DNA from: Polaribacter sp. Q13
GTDB taxonomy: Bacteria; Bacteroidota; Bacteroidia; Flavobacteriales; Flavobacteriaceae
Reading direction: 5' to 3'
Length of the DNA: 64,000 bases
Assembly (NCBI RefSeq): GCF_016858305.2
Contig: NZ_CP074436.1
Coordinates: 392,001-456,000 of the forward strand
Shown: piece by piece, positions 254 through 15,959 of the stretch
Layout: every line of letters starts with the position of its first letter
Numbering within the stretch: position 1 is the stretch's first letter
The notes under the pieces: generated by a model
Databases searched by the model: none
Told to the model about the DNA's origin: nothing
Seen by the model: the letters and a program-made list of their open reading frames with translations, nothing else
Made by a program: the position numbers and the translations under genes

Positions 254-2137
254 ATGAAAAAAAACATATTCTATTGTTTGGTATTTTTACTGATGGTATC
301 CTGCGGAAAAGAGGAGCACAAGTCAGTAGAAAAAAAGGCTAGCACAGAAAAAGACGCAGAAATAAGTTTACCTTTTTCTACTATTGAATTAAATGATCTA
401 GCAGGTTTTAAAGCAACATCAAGCAATTGGAAAATTGTAGGAAATGCTATTGCAGACAGAAACAAGGAAAAAACATTTACAGCTACAGAAGGCGTAGGTA
501 TTTTATTAAATACGCCAAATAAGGAAGCTAAAGGAAATATATTTAGCAATTTTGAACATGGAGATATTGAATTAGAACTAGACGTAATGATGCCATTAGG
601 ATCTAATTCTGGTATTTATTTTCAAGGACGATATGAAGTTCAATTATTCGATAGTTGGGGAGTAACAGCACCAAAATATAATGATATTGGAGGTATTTAT
701 CAACGTTGGAATAAAGAAGCAGCTAAAGGTAAAGAAGGTTATGAAGGGCATGCTCCAATGGTAAATGCATCAAAAGCTCCAGGTTTATGGCAACATTTAA
801 AAGTTATTTTTCATGCACCAAAGTTTAATTCCGAAGGAAAAAAAACAAAGAATGCTTGGTTTGAAGAAGTTCTGTTAAATGGTGTTTTATTACATAAAAA
901 TGTAGAAGTTACAGGAGCAACAAGAGGCGGGAAGGCTAAAGAAGTTGCTACTGCTCCGTTTATGATTCAAGGAGATCATGGGGCAGTTGCTTTTAAAAAC
1001 ATAAAATACAAACTTTATGGAAACAAGAAGATTGGTATTAAAGAAACTACGCTAAAAGTGTATGATAATCCTGATAAAAGCAGAGGCTTAAAAAAGTATG
1101 AAGAACGTAAATTAATTCAAGAAATTAAGGTAGATTCTATTTCTCCTTTGGTAAGGTTTAAGCCAAACGTGCAGCATACTCTTAACTATACAGGTCAGTT
1201 TGATATACCAACAACAGGAGAATATTTATTTGATGTAAATGTGTACGGTACCGCTGTTTTGATAATTGATAATGATACTGTAGTGAACACTGGTGGAATT
1301 GGTTCTGGTAAAGTAAAACTTCAAAAAGGAATAGTGAATTATACCTTGTTGTATAACAAACCATATCCTTGGGGATTACAATTCGACCTTTATGTAGAAG
1401 GACCAGAAATACAACGTTATTCTGTATTAGAAACAAGTATGGCTGGTATCAACAAAAATAAAACTATTAAACCTATTGTAATTGATGCTACAACCGAGAA
1501 TCAAATTCAACGTTGCTTTTTGTTTCATAAAGGAACCAAAAGAACTCATGTTATTACTGTTGGTTTCATAGAAAAATTAAATTTTGCTTATGATTTATCT
1601 TCCGCTTCTTTGCTACAAGTTTGGGGTGGAGATTTTTTAGAAACTACAGATATGTGGCATTCCAGAGGAAAAGAGCAAGTGGGAAGCCCGCGTGGTTTTA
1701 TTGTTTCGGCAAATGGAAATATAGATTTTGCAGTTTTAGAAAATGAGAATCAAGATTGGCCATCAGAAATAAATGAAGAAACGAACTTTAAACAAAAAGG
1801 ATACAAATTAGACAAGAATCAAATTCCTGAGTTTTTATGTAGTATAAATGATGTAGAAATAGCAGATAAAATAATAGCTTCTACCAAAGAAAAAAGAGCT
1901 GTAGAAAGAATTATACATATAGATGGAAAAAGTGCAATTTGGCATAAAATAGCGGTAGGAGAATCCATAGAAAAATTGCCAAATAATATATTTATTATCA
2001 ACAGTGAAAGTTATTATGTAGATTTTTCTGGCAACAATACTTTAGAAACGATTACACGTTCTAAAGGAGGGAAAGAAGAGTTGTTAGTAAAAATACCTGC
2101 AGGGAAACAAACTATTAATTACACTATTATCTGGTAA
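254..2137 (+). CDS. Lipoprotein with DUF1080 (3-keto-disaccharide hydrolase) domain and PA14-like domain
   Basis: The N-terminus is a lipoprotein signal peptide with lipobox VSCG (Cys17), so the protein should be anchored in the periplasm or on the surface. Residues about 45-255 match the DUF1080 LamG-like fold, with conserved stretches such as NSGIYFQGRYEVQ and FMIQGDHG. Residues about 285-400 look like a PA14-type beta-sandwich (TGQFDIPTTGEYLFDV). The last 230 residues are not recognised. DUF1080 proteins cleave glycosides already oxidised at C3 (3-keto-glycosides), so this is a candidate partner for a sugar dehydrogenase. The next gene, 17 bp downstream, encodes such a propeller protein and is probably co-transcribed. 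Activity on galactan fragments is inference. Confidence 0.8.
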   Translation: MKKNIFYCLVFLLMVSCGKEEHKSVEKKASTEKDAEISLPFSTIELNDLAGFKATSSNWKIVGNAIADRNKEKTFTATEGVGILLNTPNKEAKGNIFSNFEHGDIELELDVMMPLGSNSGIYFQGRYEVQLFDSWGVTAPKYNDIGGIYQRWNKEAAKGKEGYEGHAPMVNASKAPGLWQHLKVIFHAPKFNSEGKKTKNAWFEEVLLNGVLLHKNVEVTGATRGGKAKEVATAPFMIQGDHGAVAFKNIKYKLYGNKKIGIKETTLKVYDNPDKSRGLKKYEERKLIQEIKVDSISPLVRFKPNVQHTLNYTGQFDIPTTGEYLFDVNVYGTAVLIIDNDTVVNTGGIGSGKVKLQKGIVNYTLLYNKPYPWGLQFDLYVEGPEIQRYSVLETSMAGINKNKTIKPIVIDATTENQIQRCFLFHKGTKRTHVITVGFIEKLNFAYDLSSASLLQVWGGDFLETTDMWHSRGKEQVGSPRGFIVSANGNIDFAVLENENQDWPSEINEETNFKQKGYKLDKNQIPEFLCSINDVEIADKIIASTKEKRAVERIIHIDGKSAIWHKIAVGESIEKLPNNIFIINSESYYVDFSGNNTLETITRSKGGKEELLVKIPAGKQTINYTIIW

Positions 2138-2154
2138 TTCTAAATCTAAAAAAA

Positions 2155-4134
2155 ATGAAGACTTTATATAAAATATTAGCTGTTGTAGTGTTGCTATTTG
2201 CAAGTCAAGCAGGAATCGCTCAGAAAAAAGGTAAAATTGTAAACAAAGCGCTTGCTCAAAAAGAATTAGACTATTATAAAATAGTAGATGTTCCTATTCC
2301 TAAAGACATAGTTTTAGAAGTTGGAGGCTTGGCATTAACCAATGAAGGTAAATTAGGTGTTTCTACTAGAAGAGGTGAAGTTTGGGTGCTTGATAATCCG
2401 AAGACTAAAAAACCAACCTATAAATTATTTGCTAAAGGAATGCATGAAATTCTTGGTTTGGCTTATAAAGATAATGGGTTTTACGCTACCCAACGTAGCG
2501 AGTTAACAAGATTAGAAGACGAAGATAAAAACGGTGTTGCAGATTATTACAAAACTGTTTTTTCTTGGCCATTATCTGGTAATTATCACGAATATTCTTA
2601 CGGACCTAAATTTGATAAGAATGGAGATATGATACTCACCTTAAATGCAACTTATATGGGAGATGCTTTAAGTATGGCAAAATGGAGAGGGTGGTTGATA
2701 AGAATAACACCAGAAGGAAAAATGACACCATTAGCCGCAGGTTTAAGATCTCCAGCAGGTTTTGATGTGAATGCCAATGGCGATATATTTTATACTGAAA
2801 ACCAAGGTGAATGGGTTGGTTCTGGACGTATGACACATATTGAAAAAGGAGATTTTGCAGGTGGAAATCCAATGAGTTTACAATGGACAGGGGATAAATT
2901 ATCTCCACTTTCTATGAAGCCAGAAGATTTAAATCCTGATGAAGGTGTGACACTTTATGAATATGCAAAAATAAAAAAAGAAGTAAAAGCACCTGCAATA
3001 TGGTTTCCTCATACCATTCAAGGCATTTCTACTTCAGATATTTTGTATGATACAACTAACGGAAAGTTTGGACCTTTTGCAGGTCAAATGTTTGTGGGAG
3101 ATCAAGGACATAGTAAAGTTGTGCGTGTATTTATGGAAAAAGTAAATGGCGTGTATCAAGGAGCTTCTTTTCTATTTAAAGAAAATTTCTCTTCGGGTGT
3201 TTTAAGAATGATTTGGGGCGATGATTCTAATATGTTTGTAGGTATGACAAGTAGAGGATGGTCATCAACAGGAAGAAAATCTTATGGTTTACAGCGTTTA
3301 GTTTGGACAGGAAAAACTCCGTTTGAAATAAAAAAAATGAAAGCGTTAAATGATGGTTTTGAATTAGAGTTTACCAAACCAATCAACAAAAAAATGGCGC
3401 AAGATTTGTCAAATTACAAAATGTCGACTTTTACGTATGGTTATCATAAAGAATATGGAAGTCCTATTGTAGATGCTCAAAAATCTATGATACATAAAGC
3501 AGTTGTTTCTGCCGATGGTTTAAAAGTGAAATTAACCATTCATGGAATGCGATTGGGGTATATTCATCAAATAGAAATTCCGAAGTTAACATCTGCTTCA
3601 GGAGAATTATTATTGCATAATACCGGATATTATACTTTAAACGAAGTTCCAGGAGGTGAGTTAAAATCGCCACAAATGCAGATGTCAAAAACATCAAAGA
3701 AAACAATAAAACAACCTAAACGCGTTAACACAATGCCGTCTTCTTGGGGAGAACGTGGTGCAGATGAGAAAGTTGTTATTGGTACCATTCCTGGGTTAAA
3801 ATACGATACTGAAGAGATTACAATCAATAGAAATAGTAATATTGAATTAACTCTGAATAATAATGATGACATGATACACAATGTTGTTATAACCAAACCA
3901 GGTAAAGAAACGCCTCTTAAAATAGGGGAATTAGCGCTTAGTTTAGGACTTGAAGGTTCAGATTTAAATTATGTTCCGTTTGATGATAGAATATTATTTC
4001 ATACAGGAACTGTTGCTCCAGAAAGTAATGAAACTATTTACTTTAAATCTCCTAGCGAACCTGGAGAATATTGGATAGTTTGTACTTTTCCTGGGCATTC
4101 TTTTTCTATGAGAGCAAAATTAATTGTGAAGTAG
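2155..4134 (+). CDS. Secreted beta-propeller dehydrogenase-like protein fused to an azurin-like copper domain
   Basis: A Sec signal peptide (cleavage near SQAGIAQ) precedes a PQQ/sorbosone-dehydrogenase-like beta-propeller (about residues 45-400) with stretches such as AAGLRSPAGFDVNANGDIFYTENQG. After a linker domain, residues about 560-659 form a cupredoxin. Its ligands are His575 (MIHNV), Cys643, His648 and Met652, in CTFPGHSFSM, which has the azurin spacing Cys-x4-His-x3-Met. A type I copper centre makes this an electron carrier fused to a putative oxidoreductase or binding propeller. The gene lies 17 bp after the DUF1080 gene and ends at a hairpin terminator. Oxidation of a sugar is inferred; the cofactor cannot be read from sequence. 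Confidence 0.8.
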   Translation: MKTLYKILAVVVLLFASQAGIAQKKGKIVNKALAQKELDYYKIVDVPIPKDIVLEVGGLALTNEGKLGVSTRRGEVWVLDNPKTKKPTYKLFAKGMHEILGLAYKDNGFYATQRSELTRLEDEDKNGVADYYKTVFSWPLSGNYHEYSYGPKFDKNGDMILTLNATYMGDALSMAKWRGWLIRITPEGKMTPLAAGLRSPAGFDVNANGDIFYTENQGEWVGSGRMTHIEKGDFAGGNPMSLQWTGDKLSPLSMKPEDLNPDEGVTLYEYAKIKKEVKAPAIWFPHTIQGISTSDILYDTTNGKFGPFAGQMFVGDQGHSKVVRVFMEKVNGVYQGASFLFKENFSSGVLRMIWGDDSNMFVGMTSRGWSSTGRKSYGLQRLVWTGKTPFEIKKMKALNDGFELEFTKPINKKMAQDLSNYKMSTFTYGYHKEYGSPIVDAQKSMIHKAVVSADGLKVKLTIHGMRLGYIHQIEIPKLTSASGELLLHNTGYYTLNEVPGGELKSPQMQMSKTSKKTIKQPKRVNTMPSSWGERGADEKVVIGTIPGLKYDTEEITINRNSNIELTLNNNDDMIHNVVITKPGKETPLKIGELALSLGLEGSDLNYVPFDDRILFHTGTVAPESNETIYFKSPSEPGEYWIVCTFPGHSFSMRAKLIVK

Positions 4135-4160
4135 AGAGTTTTTAATTATATAAAAATTTA

Positions 4161-4194
4161 AAATGCGATTCCAAAAATGGGATCGCATTTTTTT
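4161..4194 (+). terminator. Rho-independent terminator after the propeller-cupredoxin gene
   Basis: Arms AAATGCGATTCC (4161-4172) and GGGATCGCATTT (4179-4190) pair over 12 bp with one G-T wobble around a 6-base loop, and are followed by a T run. The hairpin lies about 27 bp after the stop codon at 4134. Confidence 0.85.
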
Positions 4195-4419
4195 ATGGAA
4201 TAGTAATTTAATCGAAATGAATTAATTTATGAACCCATCTTTTTATTGATAAATAATACAGGTTATAAGAATTATGGAGTAGAGAGTAAAAGTTCTTTTA
4301 CTCCATTTATGAGTTTAATAAAAAGTTTACTGTACGCTGTACAACCGGAAAAGATAACTTTATCAAGTTATAAAAAAATAAGTTCCTTAGAAGTTTTATT
4401 GTTAAGTATAAAAACTATA

Positions 4420-4470
4420 ATTCCCGCTTTTGTATATCATTTTGATAAAGCTTAGCGGGAATCTAATTTT
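4420..4470. terminator. Inverted repeat at the 3' end of the minus-strand operon
   Basis: ATTCCCGCT (4420-4428) and AGCGGGAAT (4454-4462) are perfectly complementary with a 25-base loop. T-rich sequence lies on the right and A-rich sequence on the left, so it could end transcription from either side. It abuts the stop of the gene at 4471-5862. The long loop makes it weaker than the hairpin at 4161. Confidence 0.5.
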
Positions 4471-5862
4471 TTAATCTATTGTTTTTCCTAAAACTACTTG
4501 AAAAGCTCCTTTTTTTAAGAAAGGTTTGCTGTTTTCTGCTGTTATTTTAGTTTCCCAAGCGTAAATTTTTTGTAAGTTTTTCAATTTAGATAAACTACCT
4601 AAACTAACTTCTGTAACTTGTGTATTGTATAGATTTATACTTGTTAATTTAGATAAGGCATTCAATTCAGAAATTCCGATATCTGTAATTGGATTGCTGT
4701 TCAATTTCAATTTTAGCAGATTTTTAAACTGATTAATATCTTTTATATTGGCATCACTTAAGTTATTGTCCTGAATAGATAACCATAAAATATGATCTTT
4801 AATCCCTACTAGTTTCTTCAGTTTTTCCTCAAGTAAATCTGCATTAGCAACGGTAATTGTATTTGAAGGTAAAACGGCTTCGTATAAATTAGATCCAAAC
4901 ACTAATTCTCTTAGGGTAAAACCTTCGGATAGAAGTTCATTTAAAACTTTTTCATCTATAACACCTAATTTAGGTAGTTCATTTCCATTGTTTCCATCAC
5001 TAGATAATCCCAACATTGTGGTAGCAATTGCCAATGTTTTTTTAGAAGATTCTATAGCTCCAATTTTAGTTGAAAAACTGGCATTTGCGTTATCAATCCA
5101 ATAAGTTATAATAGCTGTTTCTTCTTCTGTTAAAGGAGTTTTTCCTTTTGGAGGCATAAAGTCATCATGATGCGGATTTAATAAAACACGACGAATTAAT
5201 TCTGACTTGGAAGCATCTCCAGCCACCAAAACAGCACCGTTTTTACCACCACCTAAAATAGCAATACTGTCATGCAGCATTAAACCACCTTTCTTTTTAT
5301 CAGTATTATGACAACTGGTGCATTTGTTTTCTAAAATAGGAGCTACTAAATAGCTATACACAACAGCATCTTCCACTTTAGTTACCGGTTGTAAAGGTTC
5401 TTCTTTCTCTTGAAAAGGAGCATATTTTGTTAAATAATCGCTTCCATGGGTAAGATTACCTCCATAATGACCAGTAACACTTAATAAAATAACAAGTAGA
5501 GCAAGTGTTGCAATATTAGATTTGACGCTGTTTAGTTTGCTTATTTTTATTTTATCAATTCTAATTAACCACGCCATAAAAGCAATAACTGTGGTAGCAA
5601 TTCCAAACCAGAAATGAGAATCAATTGCGGCATCATCATAGCCACCACTTAAAGATAACATATATCCTAAAATACAGGCAATTGCAGCAGTTACGGCTCC
5701 TGTTAAAAGAGCTAGCGGAATTCCTGCATTAAATACAGAGTCTTTTTTCCATTTACTATAGATTTCTAATAAAAAAGCAAAGAATAAAAATCCAATAGGC
5801 ATATGTACCACAAGTGGATGAAATCTTCCTAGAAAGATGATAAAGTCTGGTGTTTCAGTCAT
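4471..5862 (-). CDS. DUF2231 membrane protein with cytochrome c (PSCyt1-type) and leucine-rich-repeat domains
   Basis: The N-terminal 130 residues contain four hydrophobic segments and the DUF2231 signature FLGRFHPLVVHMPIGF. A planctomycete-type cytochrome motif follows, CTSCH at residues 181-185, with the context PILENKCTSCHNTDKKKGG. A distal MPPKGKTPL stretch may supply the Met ligand. Residues about 320-440 carry leucine-rich repeats (LWLSIQDNNLS, LLKLKLNSNPI). One heme c on a membrane anchor suggests transfer of electrons to the respiratory chain. It is the last gene of a four-gene operon, 18 bp after its neighbour. The LRR part may bind a partner protein. The substrate is unknown. Confidence 0.8.
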   Translation of the reverse strand: MTETPDFIIFLGRFHPLVVHMPIGFLFFAFLLEIYSKWKKDSVFNAGIPLALLTGAVTAAIACILGYMLSLSGGYDDAAIDSHFWFGIATTVIAFMAWLIRIDKIKISKLNSVKSNIATLALLVILLSVTGHYGGNLTHGSDYLTKYAPFQEKEEPLQPVTKVEDAVVYSYLVAPILENKCTSCHNTDKKKGGLMLHDSIAILGGGKNGAVLVAGDASKSELIRRVLLNPHHDDFMPPKGKTPLTEEETAIITYWIDNANASFSTKIGAIESSKKTLAIATTMLGLSSDGNNGNELPKLGVIDEKVLNELLSEGFTLRELVFGSNLYEAVLPSNTITVANADLLEEKLKKLVGIKDHILWLSIQDNNLSDANIKDINQFKNLLKLKLNSNPITDIGISELNALSKLTSINLYNTQVTEVSLGSLSKLKNLQKIYAWETKITAENSKPFLKKGAFQVVLGKTID

Positions 5863-5880
5863 AAAATAAATGCTAATAAA

Positions 5881-6987
5881 TTATACGCGTTCTAGTTTTA
5901 ATGGCGGTGTTTTATCTGCTCTCCATTGGCAGATGTACAAGTTTTTATCATTATCTACACACACATCATGACCATGAGAGATAGGTTTGTCTAGTAATTG
6001 ATATGATTTTTGAAGTTCTCCATTTACATATAATGGAGCAGTAGCTCCTGGGTTAGAAACCACTTTGTCTCCTTCTAAAATCGTTACAAATCCTGTGGGT
6101 TGTTTCCAGTCAGTTTTTCCAACTTCTGGTTGAGACCAGCACACTCCAGCATATAAATTGGTGTCATCAAAAACAGGTCTACAAACTTGCATATTTGGCA
6201 AGTGAAGTGTTTTTATATATTTTCCATCTAAGGTAAACCACTTAAAACAAGCCTGACTTCTAGAGGTAACAACCACCATTGGGTTTTCTTTATCTCTGTA
6301 ATCTATGGCAACACCATGGGCGCTTTTAATTTGATAATTTTTATCTGGATTGTCACTTCCTCCCCAATGTCTAATATAACGACCATTATAATCGTATTGA
6401 ATAATTCTACTCATGCCGTAACCATCAGCAACATAAATATCTCCATTAGGACCTATTGCTGTTTCTGTTGGGCAAAAAGATTCTCCTGGTTTGTAAATTC
6501 CAATAGTAAGTGGATGTCCTATATCAAAAACAACGCGACCATCCATAGTTGTTTTTGTAATTCTTCCGTTGTGTTTTGTCCAACCACCTTGTTTGTTTAA
6601 AAACCAACCAGAATCTGCTAAAAATAAATATTCATCTCCTCCTTCGTCGGATATTGTTAAACCATGTCCACCAGGATATGCAGTTCCCCAAGAGTCTATA
6701 ACGTTTCCAGATTTATCAAAAATAATCACATTGTTTTTAGGATGATCTCCAATCATCACCAATCTACCCTTGCTGTCCATTTGCATTTCATGGCAATTCA
6801 ATAAAGGGGTTTCAATGGAGCTCATTTTAGCCCAATCTCGTATTAATTTATATTGATAATCTCCGTGCCCTAGAATTACATCATTTTTTTTTGATTTTTT
6901 TATCATATGAAAACCAAATGTAGGTGCAGCGGTTAACGCAGCAGTTGCTAGTCCAGCTTTTTTAATAAAATCTCTTCTTGTAGACAT
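5881..6987 (-). CDS. Tat-exported NHL-type (six-bladed) beta-propeller protein
   Basis: The protein begins MSTRRDFIKKAGLATAALTAAP, a twin-arginine signal, so a folded or cofactor-bearing protein is expected outside the cytoplasm. The rest is a peptidylglycine lyase/NHL-like propeller, with repeated motifs such as GPNGDIYVADGYG, AHGVAIDYRD and GHDVCVDNDKNLYICQW. No heme motif is seen. It follows the DUF1501 gene by 10 bp and is clearly in the same operon. Such propellers accompany DUF1501 and DUF1553 proteins in planctomycetes and marine Bacteroidota, but their reaction is not established. It could be a binding or structural partner, not an enzyme. Confidence 0.75.
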   Translation of the reverse strand: MSTRRDFIKKAGLATAALTAAPTFGFHMIKKSKKNDVILGHGDYQYKLIRDWAKMSSIETPLLNCHEMQMDSKGRLVMIGDHPKNNVIIFDKSGNVIDSWGTAYPGGHGLTISDEGGDEYLFLADSGWFLNKQGGWTKHNGRITKTTMDGRVVFDIGHPLTIGIYKPGESFCPTETAIGPNGDIYVADGYGMSRIIQYDYNGRYIRHWGGSDNPDKNYQIKSAHGVAIDYRDKENPMVVVTSRSQACFKWFTLDGKYIKTLHLPNMQVCRPVFDDTNLYAGVCWSQPEVGKTDWKQPTGFVTILEGDKVVSNPGATAPLYVNGELQKSYQLLDKPISHGHDVCVDNDKNLYICQWRADKTPPLKLERV

Positions 6988-6997
6988 CTATTTTGTT

Positions 6998-8512
6998 TTA
7001 TGTTAATAAATCTTTTACAACATGTCCATGAACATCCGTTAATCTGTAACGTCTTCCTTGGTGTTTAAAAGTTAATTTCTCATGATCTATACCAAATAAA
7101 TGCATTAACGTTGCATGGAAATCATGCACATGTACAGGATCTTTGGTTACATTATAACTAAAATCGTCTGTTTCTCCGTAAGAGAATCCCGGTTTTACAC
7201 CTGCACCTGCCATCCACATTGTAAATGCTTTTGGGTGATGATCTCTACCATAATTTGTATCTGTTAATTGACCTTGAGAGTATACTGTTCTTCCAAATTC
7301 TCCACCCCAAACAACTAACGTATCATCTAACATACCACGTTGTTTTAAATCTTTTATTAAGGCAGCATTGGCTTGATCTGTTTTTCTGGATTGACTTTTT
7401 GTTCCTCCCGGACAATTGTTATGTTGGTCCCATCCTTGATGATACAATTGTACAAATTTAACGCCTTTTTCTAGTAACTTTCTAGCCATTAAGCAATTTG
7501 CTGCATACGTACCCGGATCTTTACTGTCTTTACCATACAAATCGAAAATGTGTTCTGGTTCATCAGATAAATCTGTTACTTCTGGCACAGAGGTTTGCAT
7601 TTTAAAGGCCATTTCGTATTGCGCCATTCTAGCCTGAATCTCTGGATCACCATAAGCATCTTTCTGAATATTGTTTAGATTTCCTAAATAATCTAACATA
7701 TGTCTTCTATCGTTTCCGTCGTAATTTTCAGGATCACTTAAATATAATACAGGGTCTTTACCAGATCTAAATTGAACCCCTTGATGTTCTGTTGGTAAAA
7801 AACCATTTCCCCATAAACTAGCTTTTAGCGGTTGCCCTTTCCCGTTTTTAGAAACCAAGGTGATAAACGTTGGTAGGTTTTCATTGTCAGATCCTAAACC
7901 ATAACTTAACCAAGAACCGATAGAAGGTCTACCAGGTAATTGATTTCCTGTTTGCATAAAAGTAATTGCCGGCGTATGATTAATTTGATCCGTTTGCATT
8001 CCTTTTATAAAGCATAAATCGTCTACAACTTCAGATAAATAGGGCATGGCATCACTAACCCAAGCTCTAGATTCTCCATATTGTTTAAAATTAAAAGTAG
8101 AAGGAGCAACGGGTAATGTACTTTGACTACCGCTCATTCCCGTAAGTCTTTGACCGCCAATAATAGATGGAGGTAATTCTTTACCAAACATGTCTACTAA
8201 TTTAGGTTTATAATCAAATAAATCTAATTGAGAAGGACCTCCACTTTGAAATAAATATATAATACGTTTCGCTTTTGGTAAATGATGAGGTAAACCTAAT
8301 CTATTTTTATTATAGGTTTCTAAAATCATTTCTTCGGTACTTTTTTTACCGGTAGCCCCAAACATTTTATCTGCACCTAATAATCCACCTAAAGCAATTG
8401 CTCCTAAACCTAATGATGTTTTTTTAAGAAAGGCTCTTCTATCAAGCTGTCTTTCTAACTTTTGTAAATCTCTATTGTTAGATGTTAATTTTTTATGATG
8501 ATCATTACACAT
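6998..8512 (-). CDS. DUF1501 family protein, Tat-exported, sulfatase/phosphatase-like fold
   Basis: The start has a twin-arginine motif (DRRAFLKK) and a hydrophobic stretch, so export by Tat is expected. The body matches DUF1501, with SGGPSQLDLFDYKP near the N-terminus, GVKFVQLYHQGWDQHNN, VVWGGEFGRT and GRDHHPKAFTMWMAGAGVKPG. DUF1501 proteins are distantly related to the alkaline-phosphatase/sulfatase superfamily and almost always sit next to a DUF1549/DUF1553 cytochrome gene, as here (26 bp downstream of it). The catalytic activity is not known. The conserved His, Asp and Glu residues in the quoted motifs are candidate metal ligands. Confidence 0.85.
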   Translation of the reverse strand: MCNDHHKKLTSNNRDLQKLERQLDRRAFLKKTSLGLGAIALGGLLGADKMFGATGKKSTEEMILETYNKNRLGLPHHLPKAKRIIYLFQSGGPSQLDLFDYKPKLVDMFGKELPPSIIGGQRLTGMSGSQSTLPVAPSTFNFKQYGESRAWVSDAMPYLSEVVDDLCFIKGMQTDQINHTPAITFMQTGNQLPGRPSIGSWLSYGLGSDNENLPTFITLVSKNGKGQPLKASLWGNGFLPTEHQGVQFRSGKDPVLYLSDPENYDGNDRRHMLDYLGNLNNIQKDAYGDPEIQARMAQYEMAFKMQTSVPEVTDLSDEPEHIFDLYGKDSKDPGTYAANCLMARKLLEKGVKFVQLYHQGWDQHNNCPGGTKSQSRKTDQANAALIKDLKQRGMLDDTLVVWGGEFGRTVYSQGQLTDTNYGRDHHPKAFTMWMAGAGVKPGFSYGETDDFSYNVTKDPVHVHDFHATLMHLFGIDHEKLTFKHQGRRYRLTDVHGHVVKDLLT

Positions 8513-8538
8513 AATTTCTTTATTTAGAGTTTAACAAT

Positions 8539-11500
8539 TTATCGTTTTGTAATAGTTGCATCTGCGTTCATAATTGTACTAGCTACAACAGAATTAGCTG
8601 CTATTAATGCTTTATTATCAGTTTTAGAAATTTTAAAAGCACCTGCTTGAAGCCAACCTTTGGTTTTTTCAATATTGCTATCAAAATTTTTATATTCTTC
8701 CTTTTGTAATGCTGTTAATAGAGTTAATTCTTTGTCAGAAATTTGTCTTCCGGTTAACTTTTTAAATACAGAAGTTATTCCTGTTTTTAAGTTTTCTGCA
8801 TCTGTAATTTGTTTTCCTAGTACTCTAGAAGCTTCAATATAGGTTGGGTCATTTAAAACAACTAAAGCTTGTAGAGGTGTGTTTGTTTTTTGTCTACGTG
8901 TTGTACACAAATCTCTTGTTGGTGCATCAAAAATAGAAATTGTAGGATTTGGTATGGTACGTTTCCAAATAGTGTACATACTTCTTCTGTATAATCCTTC
9001 TTCACCATCTTGAACATAGGTGTCTCCATTTACTTTCCATAAACCTTTAGGTTGATAAGGTCTTACGCTTTCTCCACCAATTTTTCGATTTAATAGACCA
9101 GAAGCGGCTAATGCGTTATCTCTTAACATTTCTCCAGACAGTCTGTTAGAGGGGCCTCTTGCGAGCCATTTATTTTCGCCATCTTTAGCTAAAAGTTCTT
9201 CCGTAATAACAGAACTTTGTTGGTAAGTGTTAGACATCATAATTGTTTTATGAAGTGCTTTTACATCCCAACCAGAATCCATAAATTGAATAGCTAACCA
9301 ATCTAATAATGCTGGGTGACTTGGCATTTCTCCTTGATTCCCAAAATCTTCAGCCGTTTTTACAAGTCCGGTTCCAAAAAGATTTTGCCAATATCTATTT
9401 ACGGCAACTCTGGCTGTTAATGGGTTGTTTTTGTCTGTGATCCATTTAGCCAATCCAAGTCTGTTTTTTTTCACACCCTTTGGCATTGGGAATATTTTTT
9501 CTGGAACATTTGGAAAAACACTATCTGTTGGATTGTCATAATTTCCTCTACCTAAAATATAGGTTTGTCTATTATGTTTGCTTTCTTTCATAACCATTAT
9601 CTGTTTGATAGGGTCTATACTATCCACTAGAACTTGCCTGTCTTTTTCTAATTGTTTTAGGGCGTTTGTATATGGTTTTGAATTTGCAGATAAATAATAA
9701 TTGACAAATTTCTCTTTTTCAGCATCAGATAAATCTTTGCTGCTTTTTTGCTTCATACTTTTTAATGTTTCTGTATTGGCAATTTGTAGTACTTCTAGTT
9801 CGCTTAATTCTTTATTAAACACAAGTAAATCATCAACACTAGCACCTTTAATACCTTTTCCTCTCCATACAGCACCAATTCGTAAACCAGGTTCTAAATG
9901 CGGGCTTTTGGCCCCATATAATTGCAAACCATGAAAAACAATGTCTTTATATAAATTATCAAATTCTGTTTTAGTTTGTTGTTTTTCTCCATCTACATAA
10001 ATAGAAACGCCATTAGCTTTACTAGATCCATCATAAGTGAAGGTTAATTGTACCCATTTTTCTTTTGGAACCTCGTTTAAAGTTTCAACAACAATGGCAT
10101 TATCTGGATATACGTGAGCCAAAAGTGCTTCTAGTTTGTTGTCTTTAATTTTTAAATGATATCCTCTAAAACTATGTAGTTCTGGACTATTCATTTTATG
10201 AAAAATTACGCCTTCTTTTAAATCTTTAGGAATAAAAACTTGTATACCAATACTAAAAGGTTGGTTTCTTTGAAAGATTCCAATTTTGTCTAATTCTAAC
10301 CAAGTGTCACCATTCATAGAAAGTCCAGTTCCATGCGCTCCTTTGGTGTAAATAGCTTTTTCGTTATCAACAAATTGCTGACGCATTCTTATATTGTTCT
10401 TTCCGTTACCACCAACTGTATTTACAAGTTTTTTGTTATTGAAGTCAAAAGCAGCAATTAAACTTTTAGGTTTTGCATTAGTAGCTATTTTTTTATAGCC
10501 ATTACTAGCAATCCATTTAGTTGCTTTAGCAGTTTCTGTTGTACTTATTTTAGCTACTTTTTCTTCGGTATCATCTACTAAGGTTTCTAAATAAGCCAAT
10601 ACTTTTTCTTGTTCTTCTGTAGGCAACATCATTGCTGGTACTGGTGTCGCAAGATCCCAAGGAATTAAACCGGTTTCATCAATATTATTAAAAAAACTAT
10701 ACATTTCGAAATAGTTTTTTTGAGAAATAGGATCGTATTTGTGGTCGTGGCATTTAGCGCATTCAAAAGAAAGGCCCATTAAACCCTGACTTACAGTTGC
10801 TGTTCTGTCGGCAACATATTCAGATCTAAACTCCTCATCAATAATACCTCCTTCTAAATTTTGAGGATGTAATCTATTAAAGGTAGTCGCTAGTTTTTGT
10901 TCTTTGGTAGCGTTTTCAAACATATCACCTGCAAGCTGCCAAGTAATAAATTTGTCATACGGCATGTTCTCATTAAAAGCATTAATAACCCAATCTCTCC
11001 AAGGAGATGTATCTCTGTATTTGTCATTACTATAACCGTGTGTGTCTGCATAACGAGAAAGATCCATCCAGTCTAAAGTTTTATGTTCTCCATAGGCTTT
11101 AGAAGCTAAAAGGCGGTCTATTTGTTTTTCGAATGCATTTGGAGATGAATCGTTTATAAAGTTGTTAATTTCTTCTATAGTAGGAGGTAAACCTGTTAAA
11201 TCTAGAGTTGCTCGTCTTAATAAAATGTCTTTTTCTGCTTTCTTAGAAGGTGAAAATTTTAAGTTTTCTAATTTAGCAATCACAAAATTATCAATAGGAC
11301 TAGCTACAAAATCAGTATGTTCTACCGTAGGAATTTCCGGTAATTCTGGTTTTAAAAAAGCCCAATGTTCTTTGTATTCTGCTCCTTCTTCAATCCATTT
11401 TACAAAAACAGCTTTTTCATAATCACTTAAGGTTAGGTGAGAGCCTGGTTCTGGCATTATTAATTTAGGATCGTCGGTAATAATACGATGAAAAAATTCG

Positions 11501-11778
11501 CTATTTTTTAAGTTCTTCGGGTCTATAGCAAATTTACCAGGACTTTCAGAAAGTTCTGCATACGCTAATTCTGCTGTATGTAATTGTAGTCCTCCTTTTA
11601 TATTTCCTTTATCTGGACCGTGACATAAAAAACATTTATCCGATAAAATTGGTTTTACATGTTGATTAAAGTCAACTTTTTTAGGAAGCTTTTTATACTC
11701 CTCAGCTACTGAATCCGGTAAACTTGGACCACAAGAACTAAACAGTAGTAGTCCAATAATAAATAAAAATAACCTCAT
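8539..11778 (-). CDS. Large cytochrome lipoprotein with DUF1549, LamG and DUF1553 domains
   Basis: The lipobox FSSCG (Cys16) indicates an anchored lipoprotein. A PSCyt1 heme motif, CFLCH (residues 49-53), follows. DUF1549 covers about residues 150-350 and ends with a second heme motif, CAKCH (340-344). A concanavalin-like LamG insertion is at about 440-680, and DUF1553 fills about 760-1010 (NRYWQNLFGTGLVKTAEDFG, LDWLAIQFMDSGWDVK). The length of 1079 residues is usual for this family. Two c-type hemes plus a LamG carbohydrate-binding-like fold suggest a redox protein acting on polysaccharide or oligosaccharide. It is the first gene of the minus-strand operon. The true reaction is unknown. Confidence 0.85.
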   Translation of the reverse strand: MRLFLFIIGLLLFSSCGPSLPDSVAEEYKKLPKKVDFNQHVKPILSDKCFLCHGPDKGNIKGGLQLHTAELAYAELSESPGKFAIDPKNLKNSEFFHRIITDDPKLIMPEPGSHLTLSDYEKAVFVKWIEEGAEYKEHWAFLKPELPEIPTVEHTDFVASPIDNFVIAKLENLKFSPSKKAEKDILLRRATLDLTGLPPTIEEINNFINDSSPNAFEKQIDRLLASKAYGEHKTLDWMDLSRYADTHGYSNDKYRDTSPWRDWVINAFNENMPYDKFITWQLAGDMFENATKEQKLATTFNRLHPQNLEGGIIDEEFRSEYVADRTATVSQGLMGLSFECAKCHDHKYDPISQKNYFEMYSFFNNIDETGLIPWDLATPVPAMMLPTEEQEKVLAYLETLVDDTEEKVAKISTTETAKATKWIASNGYKKIATNAKPKSLIAAFDFNNKKLVNTVGGNGKNNIRMRQQFVDNEKAIYTKGAHGTGLSMNGDTWLELDKIGIFQRNQPFSIGIQVFIPKDLKEGVIFHKMNSPELHSFRGYHLKIKDNKLEALLAHVYPDNAIVVETLNEVPKEKWVQLTFTYDGSSKANGVSIYVDGEKQQTKTEFDNLYKDIVFHGLQLYGAKSPHLEPGLRIGAVWRGKGIKGASVDDLLVFNKELSELEVLQIANTETLKSMKQKSSKDLSDAEKEKFVNYYLSANSKPYTNALKQLEKDRQVLVDSIDPIKQIMVMKESKHNRQTYILGRGNYDNPTDSVFPNVPEKIFPMPKGVKKNRLGLAKWITDKNNPLTARVAVNRYWQNLFGTGLVKTAEDFGNQGEMPSHPALLDWLAIQFMDSGWDVKALHKTIMMSNTYQQSSVITEELLAKDGENKWLARGPSNRLSGEMLRDNALAASGLLNRKIGGESVRPYQPKGLWKVNGDTYVQDGEEGLYRRSMYTIWKRTIPNPTISIFDAPTRDLCTTRRQKTNTPLQALVVLNDPTYIEASRVLGKQITDAENLKTGITSVFKKLTGRQISDKELTLLTALQKEEYKNFDSNIEKTKGWLQAGAFKISKTDNKALIAANSVVASTIMNADATITKR

Positions 11779-11935
11779 GCCTTTTAGTGAATCTAATATT
11801 ATAGGTCACAAAACTAGCATTAAAGTAAAAAATTAACTTAATTAAATCAGACTTAAAAATGCTTATTTCCGATATTTGTTCTATATTTCAGGCTTAACAT
11901 GATAATTGTCTTGTTTTGATTTAATCTTTTTTTGT

Positions 11936-12799
11936 ATGAATAATTTATTACCTTTTCTAAAGTTAAGTATGTTGCATACAGGTGTAGCTAAACTTAATGA
12001 AACATGGCGTTTTAGTAATGTGATAAGTCCATTTGTAAGGTTGTTTCTAGTAACTAAAGGAGAAGCAGAGGCATCTTACGGTGGGAAGACTTTTGTGTTA
12101 AAACCAGGTTATATGTATTTAATTCCTAGTTTTACTTATAATGATTATCAATGCAAAGATTTTCATGAACAGTATTATACAGGTTTTTTTGAAGAGATAA
12201 AATTAGGGATGTCTATTTTTAATACAAAAAAGTGTAAATATGAAGTGAAAGCAAATGTTACGGATTACGACTTTTTTGAAAGGTTACTTGTTTTAAATCC
12301 TAATAAAGCTGTTTTAGATAATAACCCTATAACACACATTAATAGTAAGTTATCTAATTATAAAAGTAGTAAAGATGCTTATTTAAATTACGATATTGAA
12401 ACACAAGGTGTATTGGCAATTTTACTTTCACGATTTGTTGAAAATGCTGCTGTTTTGGATGATAAAGGAGTTTTTAAAGGTGACTTAAATAGGGTTTTAA
12501 TATATATTGCAAAACATTTAAATGAAGAATTAATGGTGGCTACTTTGGCAGCATATTGCAATTTAAGTCCAGATCATTTTACAAAATCGTTTTATTCAAA
12601 ATTTAAAGTAAACCCTAATAAATACATTCAGCTAAAAAGAGTAGAAAGGGCGCAGTTTTTATTACTTACTACGAAGGATTCTTTAGAGCAAATAGCGGAG
12701 AAAGTGGGCTTGAAAAGTTTGTCTTATTTCTCCAAAAAATTTAAAGAAATAGTAGGTTTAAGTCCTGCGAAATTCAGAAAAGAACAACTTAATTTATAA
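11936..12799 (+). CDS. AraC family transcriptional regulator (first of a tandem pair)
   Basis: The C-terminal 100 residues are an AraC double helix-turn-helix (NLSPDHFTKSFYSKFKVNPNKYIQ, then a second helix pair around SLSYFSKKFKEIVG). The N-terminal part is a cupin-like sensing domain (LKPGYMYLIPSF). I choose ATG 11936 over the upstream in-frame TTG at 11906, because from 11936 the protein aligns residue for residue with its neighbour at 12804. It is transcribed divergently from the cytochrome operon starting at 11778, across a 157-bp region, and is a natural candidate to control that operon or the adjacent catabolic genes. The effector is unknown. Confidence 0.88.
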   Translation: MNNLLPFLKLSMLHTGVAKLNETWRFSNVISPFVRLFLVTKGEAEASYGGKTFVLKPGYMYLIPSFTYNDYQCKDFHEQYYTGFFEEIKLGMSIFNTKKCKYEVKANVTDYDFFERLLVLNPNKAVLDNNPITHINSKLSNYKSSKDAYLNYDIETQGVLAILLSRFVENAAVLDDKGVFKGDLNRVLIYIAKHLNEELMVATLAAYCNLSPDHFTKSFYSKFKVNPNKYIQLKRVERAQFLLLTTKDSLEQIAEKVGLKSLSYFSKKFKEIVGLSPAKFRKEQLNL

Positions 12800-12803
12800 A
12801 CTC

Positions 12804-13667
12804 TTGGCAAATCATTATAAGTCTTTAAAATTAAAATTGATAAATGCAGGTTATGATAAATTAGATCATAATTGGAATTTTGATAACGTTATTAGTCCGT
12901 TTACTAGGTTGTATTTAATTACAAGCGGAGAAGCGTTTGTGTATCATCACAATAAAAAATTCCACCTTTTACCTGGCTATTTATATCTTATTCCCAGTTT
13001 TGTGTATAGTAGTTATAAATGCGATTTAAAACATGAGCAATATTATGTCAGTTTTTTCGAAGAGTTAGGGAGTGGTTTGTCTATTTACAATTTTGTAAAT
13101 TTTAATTATGAAGTAAAAGCAACATGTTTAGATGCTATTTGTTTTGAAAGATTGTTGACTATAAACCCCAATAGAGGTTTGATAAATAATGATCCTAAAT
13201 ACTATGATAATCATAGAACAATGGTTGCGTTTGAAAAACGAAATATAGATTTAACTGCAAGTAATTATTTAGAAACGCATGGGATTTTAAAAGTTTTATT
13301 ATCTAAATTTATTGATGCGAATCAAACTGTAGAAAAATCTAGTAATTCTAATTTAGATAAGGTGTTAAGTTATATTTCTGAAAATTTGAATAACAATTTA
13401 AATATAAAATTATTAGCGGAGTATTGCAGTATGAATAAGGATCATTTTTCTAGAAGTTTTAAGAATAAATTCGGAATTAGTCCAAGCAAGTATATTCAAA
13501 ACATGCGCATAGAAAGAGCGATGTTATTATTAATAACAACGGATTTCTCTTTGAAAGACATTGTTATGAAAATAGGTTATGAAAATTATTCTCATTTTTT
13601 AAGAACTTTTAAGGAGCAGGTGGGGAAAACACCTAAAGAATTTAAGAAAGAGCATTTTGTAGTTTGA
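12804..13667 (+). CDS. AraC family transcriptional regulator (second of a tandem pair, TTG start)
   Basis: This is a paralogue of the preceding gene along its whole length: the same cupin-like N-terminus (LLPGYLYLIPSF) and the same AraC HTH (SMNKDHFSRSFKNKFGISPSKYIQ). No in-frame ATG exists near the N-terminus. The TTG at 12804 gives a protein whose first 24 residues align with the ATG start at 11936, ending in KLDHNW versus KLNETW, which supports TTG as the start. Only four bases separate it from the upstream stop, so the pair is one transcription unit made by tandem duplication. The divergent sensing residues suggest that the two may answer related but distinct sugars. Confidence 0.85.
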   Translation: MANHYKSLKLKLINAGYDKLDHNWNFDNVISPFTRLYLITSGEAFVYHHNKKFHLLPGYLYLIPSFVYSSYKCDLKHEQYYVSFFEELGSGLSIYNFVNFNYEVKATCLDAICFERLLTINPNRGLINNDPKYYDNHRTMVAFEKRNIDLTASNYLETHGILKVLLSKFIDANQTVEKSSNSNLDKVLSYISENLNNNLNIKLLAEYCSMNKDHFSRSFKNKFGISPSKYIQNMRIERAMLLLITTDFSLKDIVMKIGYENYSHFLRTFKEQVGKTPKEFKKEHFVV

Positions 13668-13828: not shown

Positions 13829-14617
13829 ATGAATAATGATAAAGTAGTTGGTAAACCTGCGTATAGTGTACCAAATTTAGAACGAGGCTTGTTAATAATA
13901 GAGTTGTTGGCAACTAAGACACGTGGCCTAACTTTGGCCGAAATAATAGAATCATTATCTTTATCAAAATCCAGTGCTTTTCGTATTGTTAGTACCTTAA
14001 TTTATAAGAATTATTTGCAAAAAAACGAAACGACAAAAAAAATTACTTTATCAAGAAAGATGTTAAGCCTTGGTATTTCTTCTATGAATGAGCAAAGTAT
14101 TGTAGAGGTATCTATTGATGTGATGCGGGCTTTAAGAGACGAGTTAAAAGAATCTGTAATGTTGGGTGTTATACTTGGTAGCACAGGTACTATTCTAGAG
14201 CAAGTCTCATCATCATTCCCTGTAAAACTATTTGTAGAGCCAGGTACACAGTTTAGTTTACATAGCTCAGTCGGAGGAAAGTCTATATTAGCAAATTTAC
14301 CTAAGGAAGAGTCGAGTGCTATCTTAAAAAATATGTCTTTTACAAAGTTTACTAAAAATACAATTGTTTCTAAAGTAGCTTTTAAAGAGCAATTAAAAGA
14401 AGTAAAAGAAATGGGCTATGCTGTTGATAATGGCGAGGATATACAAGGTATTCACTGTTTAGGAGCTCCCGTATTTAATGAGCATGGTTATCCTGTAGCT
14501 GCGTTATGGATTACGGCACCGCATGGTAGATTACGGCATGAAGAATTTTATGTTAAGGGAGAAATAATTGTTAAGTACGCTCTAGAAATTTCTACAAAGT
14601 TAGGTTACTTGGGTTAA
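13829..14617 (+). CDS. IclR family transcriptional regulator
   Basis: Residues about 12-75 form the IclR winged helix-turn-helix (LERGLLIIELLATKTRGLTLAEI, then SKSSAFRIVSTL). Residues about 85-255 are the effector-binding domain, with HSSVGGKSILANLP and the Cys-containing GIHCLGAPVFNEHGYPVAALW. The family includes KdgR, which senses 2-keto-3-deoxygluconate and binds TGAAAC...GTTTCA boxes. Two inverted repeats with TGAAAC half-sites lie directly downstream, in front of the dehydrogenase-KduD operon. I therefore infer that it represses or activates that operon in response to a keto-deoxy sugar acid. The ATG at 13829 is preceded by a GAGG, an unusual Shine-Dalgarno-like match here. Confidence 0.88.
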   Translation: MNNDKVVGKPAYSVPNLERGLLIIELLATKTRGLTLAEIIESLSLSKSSAFRIVSTLIYKNYLQKNETTKKITLSRKMLSLGISSMNEQSIVEVSIDVMRALRDELKESVMLGVILGSTGTILEQVSSSFPVKLFVEPGTQFSLHSSVGGKSILANLPKEESSAILKNMSFTKFTKNTIVSKVAFKEQLKEVKEMGYAVDNGEDIQGIHCLGAPVFNEHGYPVAALWITAPHGRLRHEEFYVKGEIIVKYALEISTKLGYLG

Positions 14618-14690
14618 AATTTTATGCCACCATTATTTTATTGAGTTTTATATTAAGTACGGTTGTACTTTATTGGAATCTATTTTTTTT

Positions 14691-14722
14691 TGAAACTAAT
14701 TTCATATATGAAATTAGTTTCA
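14691..14722. promoter_or_regulatory. Perfect 32-bp palindrome, candidate IclR operator 1
   Basis: Arms of 16 bp with no spacer: TGAAACTAATTTCATA followed by its exact reverse complement. The outer TGAAAC/GTTTCA half-sites resemble boxes bound by IclR-family KdgR proteins. It lies 74 bp after the IclR stop and 79 bp before the dehydrogenase ATG. It could also form a hairpin in RNA, but no uridine run of terminator type follows directly. Confidence 0.55.
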
Positions 14723-14751
14723 TGTGTTTTTGTGTGCTTTTTTTTATTACA

Positions 14752-14791
14752 TTTGTTTCAAATAAGATAACTGTTTCTTATTTGAAACAAA
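14752..14791. promoter_or_regulatory. Inverted repeat over a -7 box, candidate IclR operator 2
   Basis: Arms TTTGTTTCAAATAAG (14752-14766) and CTTATTTGAAACAAA (14777-14791) are perfectly complementary with a 10-bp spacer. The left arm overlaps TACATTTG (14748-14755), an exact match to the Bacteroidota -7 consensus TAnnTTTG. Both this repeat and the one at 14691 contain GTTTCA/TGAAAC, which suggests that one protein binds both. Occupancy here would block the promoter of the operon starting at 14801. No good -33 TTTG is found at standard spacing. Confidence 0.6.
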
Positions 14792-14800
14792 AATTATAAG

Positions 14801-15817
14801 ATGAAAGCAACACAATACGAAGGGAATAAAACCTTTAAAGTAATCGAAAAAGAAGTACAGAAACCAGCAAAAGGAGAAGTAAGAATAAAAGTAGCTTATG
14901 TTGGTGTTTGTGGAACAGATGTGCATATTTATCATGGAATGATGGATAAGCGAGTAGATATTCCAGTAACAATTGGTCATGAAATGTCTGGAGTAATTGA
15001 TGCAGTAGGAGAAGGTGTAACAGGTTTTTCTGTTGGTGAAAAAGTTGTTGTTCGTCCGTTAGATGATAGAAAAGTAAAAGCATCAGACAAAGGATTTAAT
15101 CACATTTGTGAAGAATTAAAATTTATTGGTATTGACAGTGAGGGGGCAATGCAGCAATATTGGAATGTGCCTAGTTTTGTTTTACATAAATTAAAAGAAA
15201 ATACCGATTTAAAATTAGCCGCTTTAATAGAACCTTTATCTGTGGCAACACATGATGTTCGTTTAAGTGGATTGGTAAAAGGAGAAACTGCTGTTGTTTT
15301 AGGTGGTGGTCCTATAGGATTATTAGTTGCTTTAGTGGCTAAAGAAGTGGGGGCACAGGTTATTGTTTCTGAAGTAAACCCTAAACGTATTGAAAAAGCA
15401 AAAGCATTAGGTTTTGATGCCGTAAGTCCTATTGATATTGATTTAGTTGAATATGTAAAAGGAAAAACGGAAGGACGTTTAGCAGATGTAGTTTTTGAAG
15501 TTGCAGGTGTTCAGCCAACGCTAGATGTAATGACAGAAGTTGCAGGAATTAGAGGAAGAATTTTAATGGTTGCTATTCACGGTGAGAAAAAACCAGTAGA
15601 CTTATTCAAATTTTTCTGGAAAGAATTAAAATTAATCGGAGCTCGTGTTTACGAAAAAGAAGATTATGAAAAATCTATCCAATTAATTACTGCCAACGAG
15701 TTGCCTTTTATCGACATGATAACAGATGTACAGCCGTTAAGTAACATTCAGCAAGTTTTTGAAAACATAGACAATAATCCTGATGGATTAAAAGTCTTAA
15801 TGGATTGTCAATTATAA
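14801..15817 (+). CDS. Zinc-type (MDR) sugar-acid dehydrogenase, candidate 2-keto-3-deoxy-L-galactonate 5-dehydrogenase
   Basis: This is a medium-chain dehydrogenase/reductase. The catalytic zinc site is visible as Cys37 (CGTD), His60-Glu61 (GHE) and Glu144 (IEP), with the NAD-binding loop GGGPIG at 168-173. The usual structural-zinc lobe (four Cys around residues 88-105) is degenerate and keeps only Cys103, as in some threonine/galactonate dehydrogenase relatives. It is the first gene of an operon with KduD, an aldehyde dehydrogenase and a cycloisomerase. In the published L-AHG pathway, 2-keto-3-deoxy-L-galactonate is oxidised at C5 before reduction to 2-keto-3-deoxygluconate, and this gene fits that oxidation. 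The specificity is inferred from context. Confidence 0.75.
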   Translation: MKATQYEGNKTFKVIEKEVQKPAKGEVRIKVAYVGVCGTDVHIYHGMMDKRVDIPVTIGHEMSGVIDAVGEGVTGFSVGEKVVVRPLDDRKVKASDKGFNHICEELKFIGIDSEGAMQQYWNVPSFVLHKLKENTDLKLAALIEPLSVATHDVRLSGLVKGETAVVLGGGPIGLLVALVAKEVGAQVIVSEVNPKRIEKAKALGFDAVSPIDIDLVEYVKGKTEGRLADVVFEVAGVQPTLDVMTEVAGIRGRILMVAIHGEKKPVDLFKFFWKELKLIGARVYEKEDYEKSIQLITANELPFIDMITDVQPLSNIQQVFENIDNNPDGLKVLMDCQL

Positions 15818-15824
15818 ATTCTCA

Positions 15825-15944
15825 TTTAGCCATTGGCTTTTAGCTATAGGCTGAAATGTTAGTTCTAGTGATTTTCGAATTATGAAAAAAAACATATAGA
15901 GAAAAATAACCACAATATATACTAATGGCTAAAAGCTAATAGCC
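15825..15944. repeat. Imperfect inverted repeat in the dehydrogenase-kduD gap
   Basis: Two copies of a GGCTTTTAGC-like element face each other, at about 15833-15851 and 15923-15941, and match at roughly 14 of 18 positions around GCTTTTAGC. The 142-bp gap is longer than others in this operon. It may be a remnant of a small dispersed repeat or an RNA processing hairpin; no function is evident. Confidence 0.4.
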
Positions 15945-15959
15945 TTTTAAAAATAAAAA

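Follow-up and report, generated by a model that had tools for sequence, protein, structure and literature searches.

The window analysed here is a 64,000-nucleotide stretch of the Polaribacter sp. Q13 chromosome (NZ_CP074436.1, positions 392,001 to 456,000; G000:C1:392001-456000 of a one-contig genome of 4.42 Mb). It reads as a junction of two separately conserved, probably extracytoplasmic redox units and a locus for agar and 3,6-anhydro-L-galactose (L-AHG). Unit B comprises a DUF1549/1553 protein, a DUF1501 protein, an NHL propeller and a membrane cytochrome with leucine-rich repeats (LRR); unit A is a DUF1080-PA14 protein followed by a cupredoxin propeller. In the sampled genomes, close unit B orthologues accompany agar catabolism; the DUF1549 family as a whole is not clearly enriched near sugar genes. 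We give about an even chance to the reading that unit B is an exported cytochrome operon which in this clade serves agar use, likely by oxidizing an agar-derived sugar or aldehyde, and that unit A is separate from it. The features are collected in Table 1.

Unit B is a conserved operon

The open reading frames (ORFs) named in an initial annotation, made from the sequence alone, were all recovered at their coordinates. Pfam and NCBIfam searches confirmed the domains, including the azurin-type propeller, the Tat-type NHL protein, the DUF1501 protein and two DUF1080 domains. The CxxCH sites were also confirmed by a scan of 43 proteins (34 of the 39 window ORFs and nine from the upstream flank). 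They lie at residue 181 of the 4471-5862 product, residues 49 and 340 of 8539-11778 and residue 627 of 25661-27886; the other 40 scanned proteins have none. Three of the four sites fall inside Pfam cytochrome c domains (PSCyt1 twice, and Cytochrom_C), and the fourth within DUF1549. The 8539-11778 protein joins PSCyt1, PSCyt2 (DUF1549) and PSD1 (DUF1553), all above the Pfam cut-offs, and carries the heme motif. Both CxxCH motifs of DUF1549/1553 proteins are kept in 76 of 76 aligned sequences, so those of 8539-11778 are not due to chance. The 5881-6987 protein combines NHL repeats with a Tat signal. The initial annotation had not described 4471-5862 as DUF2231, PSCyt1 and LRR, nor 25661-27886 as a DUF7133-HEAT-cytochrome c protein.

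DUF1549 was found in 47 of 199 Flavobacteriaceae genomes, the present one included, with 1-10 copies each; 8539-11778 is the single match in its own genome. The comparison of neighbourhoods excluded the present genome and a fragment (G112). This left 125 places, of which 80 were used: the best of each of 45 genomes and 35 random places. The controls were 40 random Flavobacteriaceae regions from 26 contigs carrying DUF1549. Control regions near DUF1549 places were rejected at drawing, so their 0/40 for DUF1549, DUF1501, NHL and Cyt-LRR is partly by construction. DUF1501 is the next gene after DUF1549/1553 in 73 of 74 frames from the 80 regions; within three genes of DUF1549/1553, a membrane cytochrome is found in 50 of 74 and an NHL protein in 30 of 74. 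The Cyt-LRR count (80/80 regions) was inflated by the common PSCyt1 domain and was not used. Unit B is a conserved operon with many paralogues.

For the whole family, DUF1549 operons showed no significant enrichment of SusC, SusD, sulfatase, GH29, GH2 or GH3 against the 40 random regions (SusC 11/80 vs 3/40; SusD 4/80 vs 2/40; sulfatases 19/80 vs 6/40). Any marker of a polysaccharide utilization locus (PUL) was borderline (37/80 vs 11/40, p 0.052), and a modest enrichment could escape a comparison of 80 with 40 regions. The DUF1501 protein has no significant relative among solved structures, the best being an arylsulfatase (E 0.5), and a scan of viral contigs with the DUF1549 protein gave no match. 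No tested function of DUF1549, DUF1553 or DUF1501 was found in the papers listed by the literature searches.

A close clade of unit B tracks agar catabolism

Among the regions taken, DUF1549/1553 identities show a gap: 14 proteins share 58-81% with the window protein and the rest at most 46%. DUF1501 shows the same gap (77% vs 65%). The full four-gene unit B is present in eight regions, all in genomes with GH117 of at least 70% identity. The NHL protein was used for an orthologue search of the 199 family genomes, with a 59% identity cut chosen after the list had been seen. Above this cut, 10 of 11 other genomes have GH117 (at least 70%) against 17/198 overall (p about 1e-11), and 10 of 11 have the MR/MLE cycloisomerase against 16/198 overall (p about 4e-12). 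Within the 46 other DUF1549-bearing genomes the ratio is 10/11 vs 12/46 (p 1.7e-7). When the cut is raised to 66%, all eight genomes have the agar markers; the next genome below the 59% cut (G006, 54%) has neither GH117 nor cycloisomerase. An order-wide NHL search (3/296 genomes at E 1e-140) added little.

Of the ten other genomes with both the NHL orthologue and the cycloisomerase, four have the two genes no more than 50 kb apart (chance 5.5e-5 under a uniform model); in the remaining six they are 86 kb and 245 kb apart in two genomes and on different contigs in four. The neighbours of the clade differ: SusC/D in L159 and L153, GH3 and GH2 in L157, GH2 in L164, and a distant GH117 in L167. 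Gfo/Idh/MocA oxidoreductase genes occur within 10 kb of 4/14 clade loci, 2/66 other loci and 0/40 controls by profile search (p 0.003, clade vs controls); one more stands directly before DUF1549 in L153 by Pfam. AraC-type regulators occur within 10 kb of 12/14 clade loci, 5/66 other loci and 9/40 controls.

A di-heme CCP/MauG gene, with two CxxCH motifs, directly follows the membrane cytochrome in four of the eight four-gene orthologues (L157, L164, L149 and L144), and adjoins it also in L163, outside these eight. In the own genome a relative of this protein (55-63% identical) is encoded at about 607.7 kb, some 205 kb from the unit B operon. This partner was absent from the initial annotation and gives a concrete chemical hint.

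The agar locus and unit C

The 27883-29088 protein matches the Zobellia 3,6-anhydro-alpha-L-galactosidase 3p2n (AhgA) with E 3e-202, so its assignment to GH117 is correct. The region 13829-36235 (IclR, ADH, SDR, ALDH, sulfatase, MR/MLE, epimerase, RhaT, GH2, DUF7133, GH117, GH29 and SusC/D) resembles the agar-induced Zobellia cluster described in the text of PMC5613140. The part at 13829-23028 is probably an L-AHG catabolism block, judging from the known pathway and from comparison with that cluster. The MR/MLE gene is found in 16 of 198 other genomes, 15 of which have GH117 at 70% or more.

Unit C, the DUF7133 cytochrome gene at 25661-27886, ends within the start of GH117: the 4-bp overlap, ATGA at 27883-27886, was verified. 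The initial annotation took this coupling as support for a common task. Against this, the coupling is not conserved in relatives. The cycloisomerase and GH117 (at least 70%) share one contig in 14 other genomes. They are in the same order and 2.1-2.3 kb apart in six (G002, G017, G084, G061, G180 and G134), against 7.0 kb in the own genome; at that spacing the additional GH2 and DUF7133 genes would not fit. The others of the 14 have a different order or spacing. Four close DUF7133 relatives (at least 63%) are encoded in G051, in G002 and, twice, in G001; none is next to a GH117 of the AhgA type, and one of the two in G001 has a distant GH117 as its neighbour. In this sample, the coupling of the DUF7133 cytochrome to GH117 is local.

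A second locus of the same genome, G000:C1:1530001-1570000 (L045, L046), contains SusC/D, a GH117 76% identical to 27883-29088, GH29, GH2 and ThuA/DUF1080-like genes. A second DUF7133 protein is encoded about 15 kb from that GH117.

Unit A is a conserved pair

The 2155-4134 protein has a C-terminal plastocyanin/azurin domain by Pfam. Its H575, C643, H648 and M652 are invariant in 34 aligned sequences and correspond to the His, Cys, His and Met ligands of type-1 copper domains. The DUF1080-PA14 gene is directly upstream of the cupredoxin propeller, on the same strand, in 74 of 80 named Bacteroidota loci, the best 80 of at least 578 confirmed. (An azurin count of 80/80 in these loci is the fused cupredoxin itself and was not used.) Unit A is a conserved pair, often near sulfatases. 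At least two sulfatases are found near it in 18/44 full-flank loci against 1/40 random Flavobacteriaceae regions, and any PUL marker in 29/44 against 11/40; the contrast is rough, since the controls were drawn from other genomes than the unit A loci. DUF7133 was found near the pair in 9/80 named loci (best 80 of at least 578) vs 1/40 controls (p 0.16).

Six named loci share 70-76% identity with the unit A propeller. Four (L096, L057, L056 and L058) keep a TonB receptor, DUF1080-PA14, the propeller and an azurin together, and three of these four adjoin genes that match ilv genes by size and order. The other two, from Wenyingzhuangia (L054 and L055), have unit A amid sulfatases, L054 with a distant GH117. 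The 577-, 177- and 491-residue genes beside unit A in Algibacter-type loci had been considered as a GMC dehydrogenase. This was rejected, because L040, a DUF7133 locus, repeats this series of gene sizes, and there Pfam identified acetolactate synthase subunits, ketol-acid reductoisomerase and threonine dehydratase, that is, ilv-type genes.

Many assemblies of Arenibacter, Maribacter and Zobellia have a contig that breaks off some 2.2-3.0 kb ahead of the propeller gene, shortly before DUF1080-PA14 (L061, L062, L064-L071, L073, L075, L077, L080-L082 and L099). These ends hint at an adjoining repeated element such as an rRNA operon. In L078, a second cupredoxin-propeller-like protein (12178-15171, 997 residues) adjoins unit A, with DUF2231-cytochrome-LRR and DUF1501 genes near.

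Units A and B are usually apart

The initial annotation had proposed a single extracytoplasmic redox module built into the galactan locus. The neighbourhoods do not bear this out. The cupredoxin propeller occurs in 1/80 DUF1549 regions (L141), and among six other genomes with close copies of both units (G001, G002, G011, G018, G129 and G180) the two are adjacent in none, being on different contigs in five and about 107 kb apart in G011. In the genome searches behind these counts and those of GH117, DUF7133 and the cycloisomerase given above, at most 9 GH117, 5 DUF7133, 10 MR/MLE and 6 cupredoxin-propeller candidates were scored per genome, and weaker copies may be missed.

The initial annotation had also suggested an oxidative step, wired by heme and copper, beside galactan hydrolysis. 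This is partly supported. The agar-linked clade of DUF1549 operons, the Gfo/Idh/MocA genes near four of its 14 loci and the sulfatases near unit A speak for it. Several points speak against it: units A and B usually lie apart, the DUF1549 family is not clearly PUL-enriched, and the residues of the pyrroloquinoline quinone (PQQ) site tentatively do not favour the propellers. That annotation held that finding the same redox genes equally often far from polysaccharide loci would speak against it; this nearly describes the DUF1549 family as a whole, from which the close clade differs. Oxidation of galactan sugars would be a possible function.

Proposed role of unit B and alternative explanations

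Unit B, read from the minus strand (8539 to 4471), would form an exported c-type cytochrome operon. The di-heme DUF1549/1553 protein with its lectin-like LamG insert is likely the catalytic or binding subunit, and the DUF1501 protein and NHL propeller may be its Tat-type partners. The DUF2231-PSCyt1-LRR protein would be the membrane cytochrome that takes the electrons, and a di-heme MauG/CCP peroxidase might complete the set in several relatives. In the close clade, unit B may be an accessory of agar use, most probably oxidizing a periplasmic sugar or aldehyde from agar breakdown. Unit A would be a separate general pair passing electrons to copper.

Several points weigh against this proposal. 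The analysis identified no sugar-oxidizing catalytic site, and the substrate is a guess. G018, one of the 11 genomes with the NHL orthologue, has neither GH117 nor the cycloisomerase at the cuts used, and the association of unit B with agar genes is uncorrected for phylogeny. PUL markers within 10 kb of the eight four-gene orthologues are not clearly in excess (5/8 vs 11/40 controls, p 0.10). The agar-induced cluster of Zobellia is described without such redox genes in a passage of the main text of PMC5613140. The separation of the units also has exceptions: DUF1549 or DUF1501 occurs in 3/80 cupredoxin-propeller loci (L073, L078 and L080; best 80 of at least 578). G018 has a cupredoxin propeller and a DUF1549 paralogue separated by about 6 kb, a DUF7133 gene lying in between and a 48% NHL gene close by. 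All four of these matches stand on one strand within 13 kb (G018:C1:1692748-1705948), possibly a combined redox cluster outside agar loci. The arrangement in G018 hints at a common task of the redox units, albeit one unrelated to galactan; given these neighbourhoods in G018, L073, L078 and L080, A and B may have a redox task in common.

Units A and B might instead be general respiratory or stress genes of the envelope that happen to lie beside the agar locus, agar-rich genomes being also rich in such operons. This is possible but doubtful. It would fit the DUF1549 family, which is not clearly enriched near SusC/D or sulfatases, and the six genomes in which close copies of A and B never adjoin; the close unit B clade, against it, tracks agar genes even among DUF1549-bearing genomes, with the NHL gene within 50 kb of the cycloisomerase in 4/10. 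Unit A itself points both ways, since three of its six named loci at 70-76% identity adjoin ilv-like genes while L054 and L055 sit among sulfatases.

A 3-ketoglycoside route would have sugars oxidized to 3-keto forms and cleaved by DUF1080 proteins, with azurin or cupredoxin as electron sink. The upstream flank bears on it. The 20 kb before the window start with sulfatase-like, GH29-like and apiosidase-like genes. Then follow in a row AraC, MFS, a Gfo/Idh/MocA oxidoreductase, an AP_endonuc_2 TIM barrel and a one-domain DUF1080 protein, and after these an azurin, TMEM220 and a TonB receptor gene running off the stretch towards the window. The Gfo/Idh/MocA-TIM-DUF1080 operon lies within 10 kb of the window, so a 3-keto-type gene set, as judged from its domains, is present outside the given range; these genes and the azurin and TonB receptor were not in the initial annotation. 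That annotation's 3-keto idea gains from this operon and from the DUF1080 domains here and in 254-2137 and 58665-60248, and the Gfo/Idh/MocA genes at unit B clade loci (L153 included) agree with it. It loses on other counts: the window proteins covered by the Pfam scan include no dehydrogenase of this kind, and the upstream Gfo/Idh/MocA protein has no signal peptide by eye and would for that reason not feed periplasmic copper or heme (the upstream DUF1080 protein is lipoprotein-like). LacABC includes a subunit of the Gluconate_2-dh3 type (PF13618); this family had no match in the genome, while the Caulobacter control was positive. The likeness to the LacABC/DUF1080 3-ketolactose route of Caulobacter, where DUF1080 is linked to lactose use according to the text of PMC9007349, is thus one of the DUF1080 domain and periplasmic oxidation, and differs in the subunit. 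We regard this route as unlikely here.

Peroxide defence or protein maturation, in which unit B with MauG/CCP would reduce peroxide or modify a partner protein and oxidize no sugar, could draw on the five loci where such a gene adjoins the membrane cytochrome. It is a rather slight prospect: in 75/80 DUF1549 regions no CCP/MauG gene was found immediately alongside, the relative in the own genome is about 205 kb away, and the agar association is left unexplained.

The cupredoxin propeller has a fold like that of PQQ soluble aldose sugar dehydrogenases (AA12). It differs from them in its fused cupredoxin. PF07995 (GSDH) gave no match in 2155-4134 at E 0.001 and none in the genome, and PqqE was not found above cut-off in the genome, other pqq genes not having been searched. 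Aligned with Escherichia coli YliI, Arg-Asn (214-215) becomes Arg-Ser (198-199), in a weak alignment (hhalign probability 1.7%). When the sequences are compared by eye, one Lys and two Arg that belong to the PQQ site seem not to be kept. The propeller seems to lack most PQQ contacts, and these residues tentatively do not favour sugar oxidation by the propellers. Profile comparisons of the propellers with YliI, and of the two propellers with each other, were weak. Against solved structures, among the matches listed, the cupredoxin, cytochrome c or repeat part was matched, never the propeller part. It is improbable on these grounds that both propellers work as quinoprotein dehydrogenases of sugars, with a cofactor imported from outside and their own cupredoxin or cytochrome domain as acceptor.

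Other features of the window

Table 1. Coordinates of the features of the window
Feature	Position	Strand	Evidence
Unit A: DUF1080 (3keto-disac_hyd) with PA14-like part	254..2137	+	Pfam, PA14 below cut-off; lipoprotein-like start by eye
Unit A: sugar-dehydrogenase-fold beta-propeller fused to azurin-type cupredoxin	2155..4134	+	
Unit B: DUF2231 membrane part, PSCyt1 cytochrome c (CTSCH) and LRR	4471..5862	-	Pfam, CxxCH
Unit B: Tat-type NHL propeller, predicted exported	5881..6987	-	Pfam/NCBIfam, orthologue search
Unit B: DUF1501 protein	6998..8512	-	Pfam; gene order in relatives
Unit B: PSCyt1-DUF1549-LamG-DUF1553, two CxxCH	8539..11778	-	Pfam; lipoprotein-like start by eye
Two AraC regulators, divergent from unit B	11906..13667	+	Pfam
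Presumed agar (L-AHG) catabolism block: IclR, ADH, KduD-like SDR, ALDH, sulfatase, MR/MLE, aldose epimerase, RhaT-like transporter	13829..23028	+	Pfam/NCBIfam
GH2-type glycosidase between RhaT and DUF7133 cytochrome	23039..25549	+	Pfam
Unit C: DUF7133 propeller-HEAT-cytochrome c (CMACH)	25661..27886	+	Pfam/NCBIfam, model
GH117 3,6-anhydro-alpha-L-galactosidase	27883..29088	+	3p2n match
SusC/SusD pair	31070..36235	+	Pfam
ThuA-DUF1080 protein	58665..60248	-	Pfam

A Mutator-type transposase gene (50438-51634) stands between the SusC/D side and an aldolase/kinase block. The 52747-54303 protein (518 residues) has no Pfam match and is weakly like the sulfoquinovose isomerase SftI (NCBIfam 154 bits, cut-off 700); its gene adjoins those of a PfkB kinase and a class II aldolase.

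Relation to known systems and significance

Planctomycete-type PSCyt/PSD genes (PSCyt1-PSCyt2-PSD1) are known from PVC bacteria. For those of freshwater Verrucomicrobia, the text of PMC5615132 (2017) suggests a carbohydrate role by a mechanism unlike that of glycoside hydrolases, with sulfatases nearby. The likeness to unit B lies in the domains, a CBM-like insert and a conserved neighbour gene, whose family we infer to be DUF1501. The window differs in its Flavobacteriaceae four-gene operon, Tat-type NHL protein, DUF2231-cytochrome-LRR protein and agar tie, and in the MauG/CCP fifth gene of its relatives. With the agar-induced PUL ZGAL_4657-4669 of Zobellia galactanivorans, as the text of PMC5613140 describes it, the window shares ahgA GH117, the genes for L-AnG (3,6-anhydro-L-galactose) catabolism, a TBDR/SGBP tandem, two regulators and a sulfatase. 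No cytochrome or DUF1549 genes are named for that PUL in this text, whereas the window has a DUF7133 cytochrome and GH2 between RhaT and GH117. The word cytochrome is absent from the main texts of PMC5698469 (carrageenan regulon) and PMC5613140 (Zobellia expression). As far as the literature searched shows, three points are new: the clade linked to agar, its form of four to five genes including MauG/CCP, and the finding that units A and B are separate.

The operon holds the genome's sole DUF1549 copy, in a complete sequence, and is tied through orthology to agar catabolism; it offers a clean place to test these families, with one deletion and one substrate family. A bolder proposal, to which we give a small chance, is that agar-degrading Flavobacteriaceae have a dedicated periplasmic cytochrome oxidation of an agar-derived sugar or aldehyde, by the di-heme DUF1549/1553 protein with DUF1501 and the membrane cytochrome, the first of these being matured or driven by a MauG-like di-heme enzyme. 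If true, this periplasmic cytochrome system would give galactan breakdown a redox branch that needs neither NAD nor flavin.

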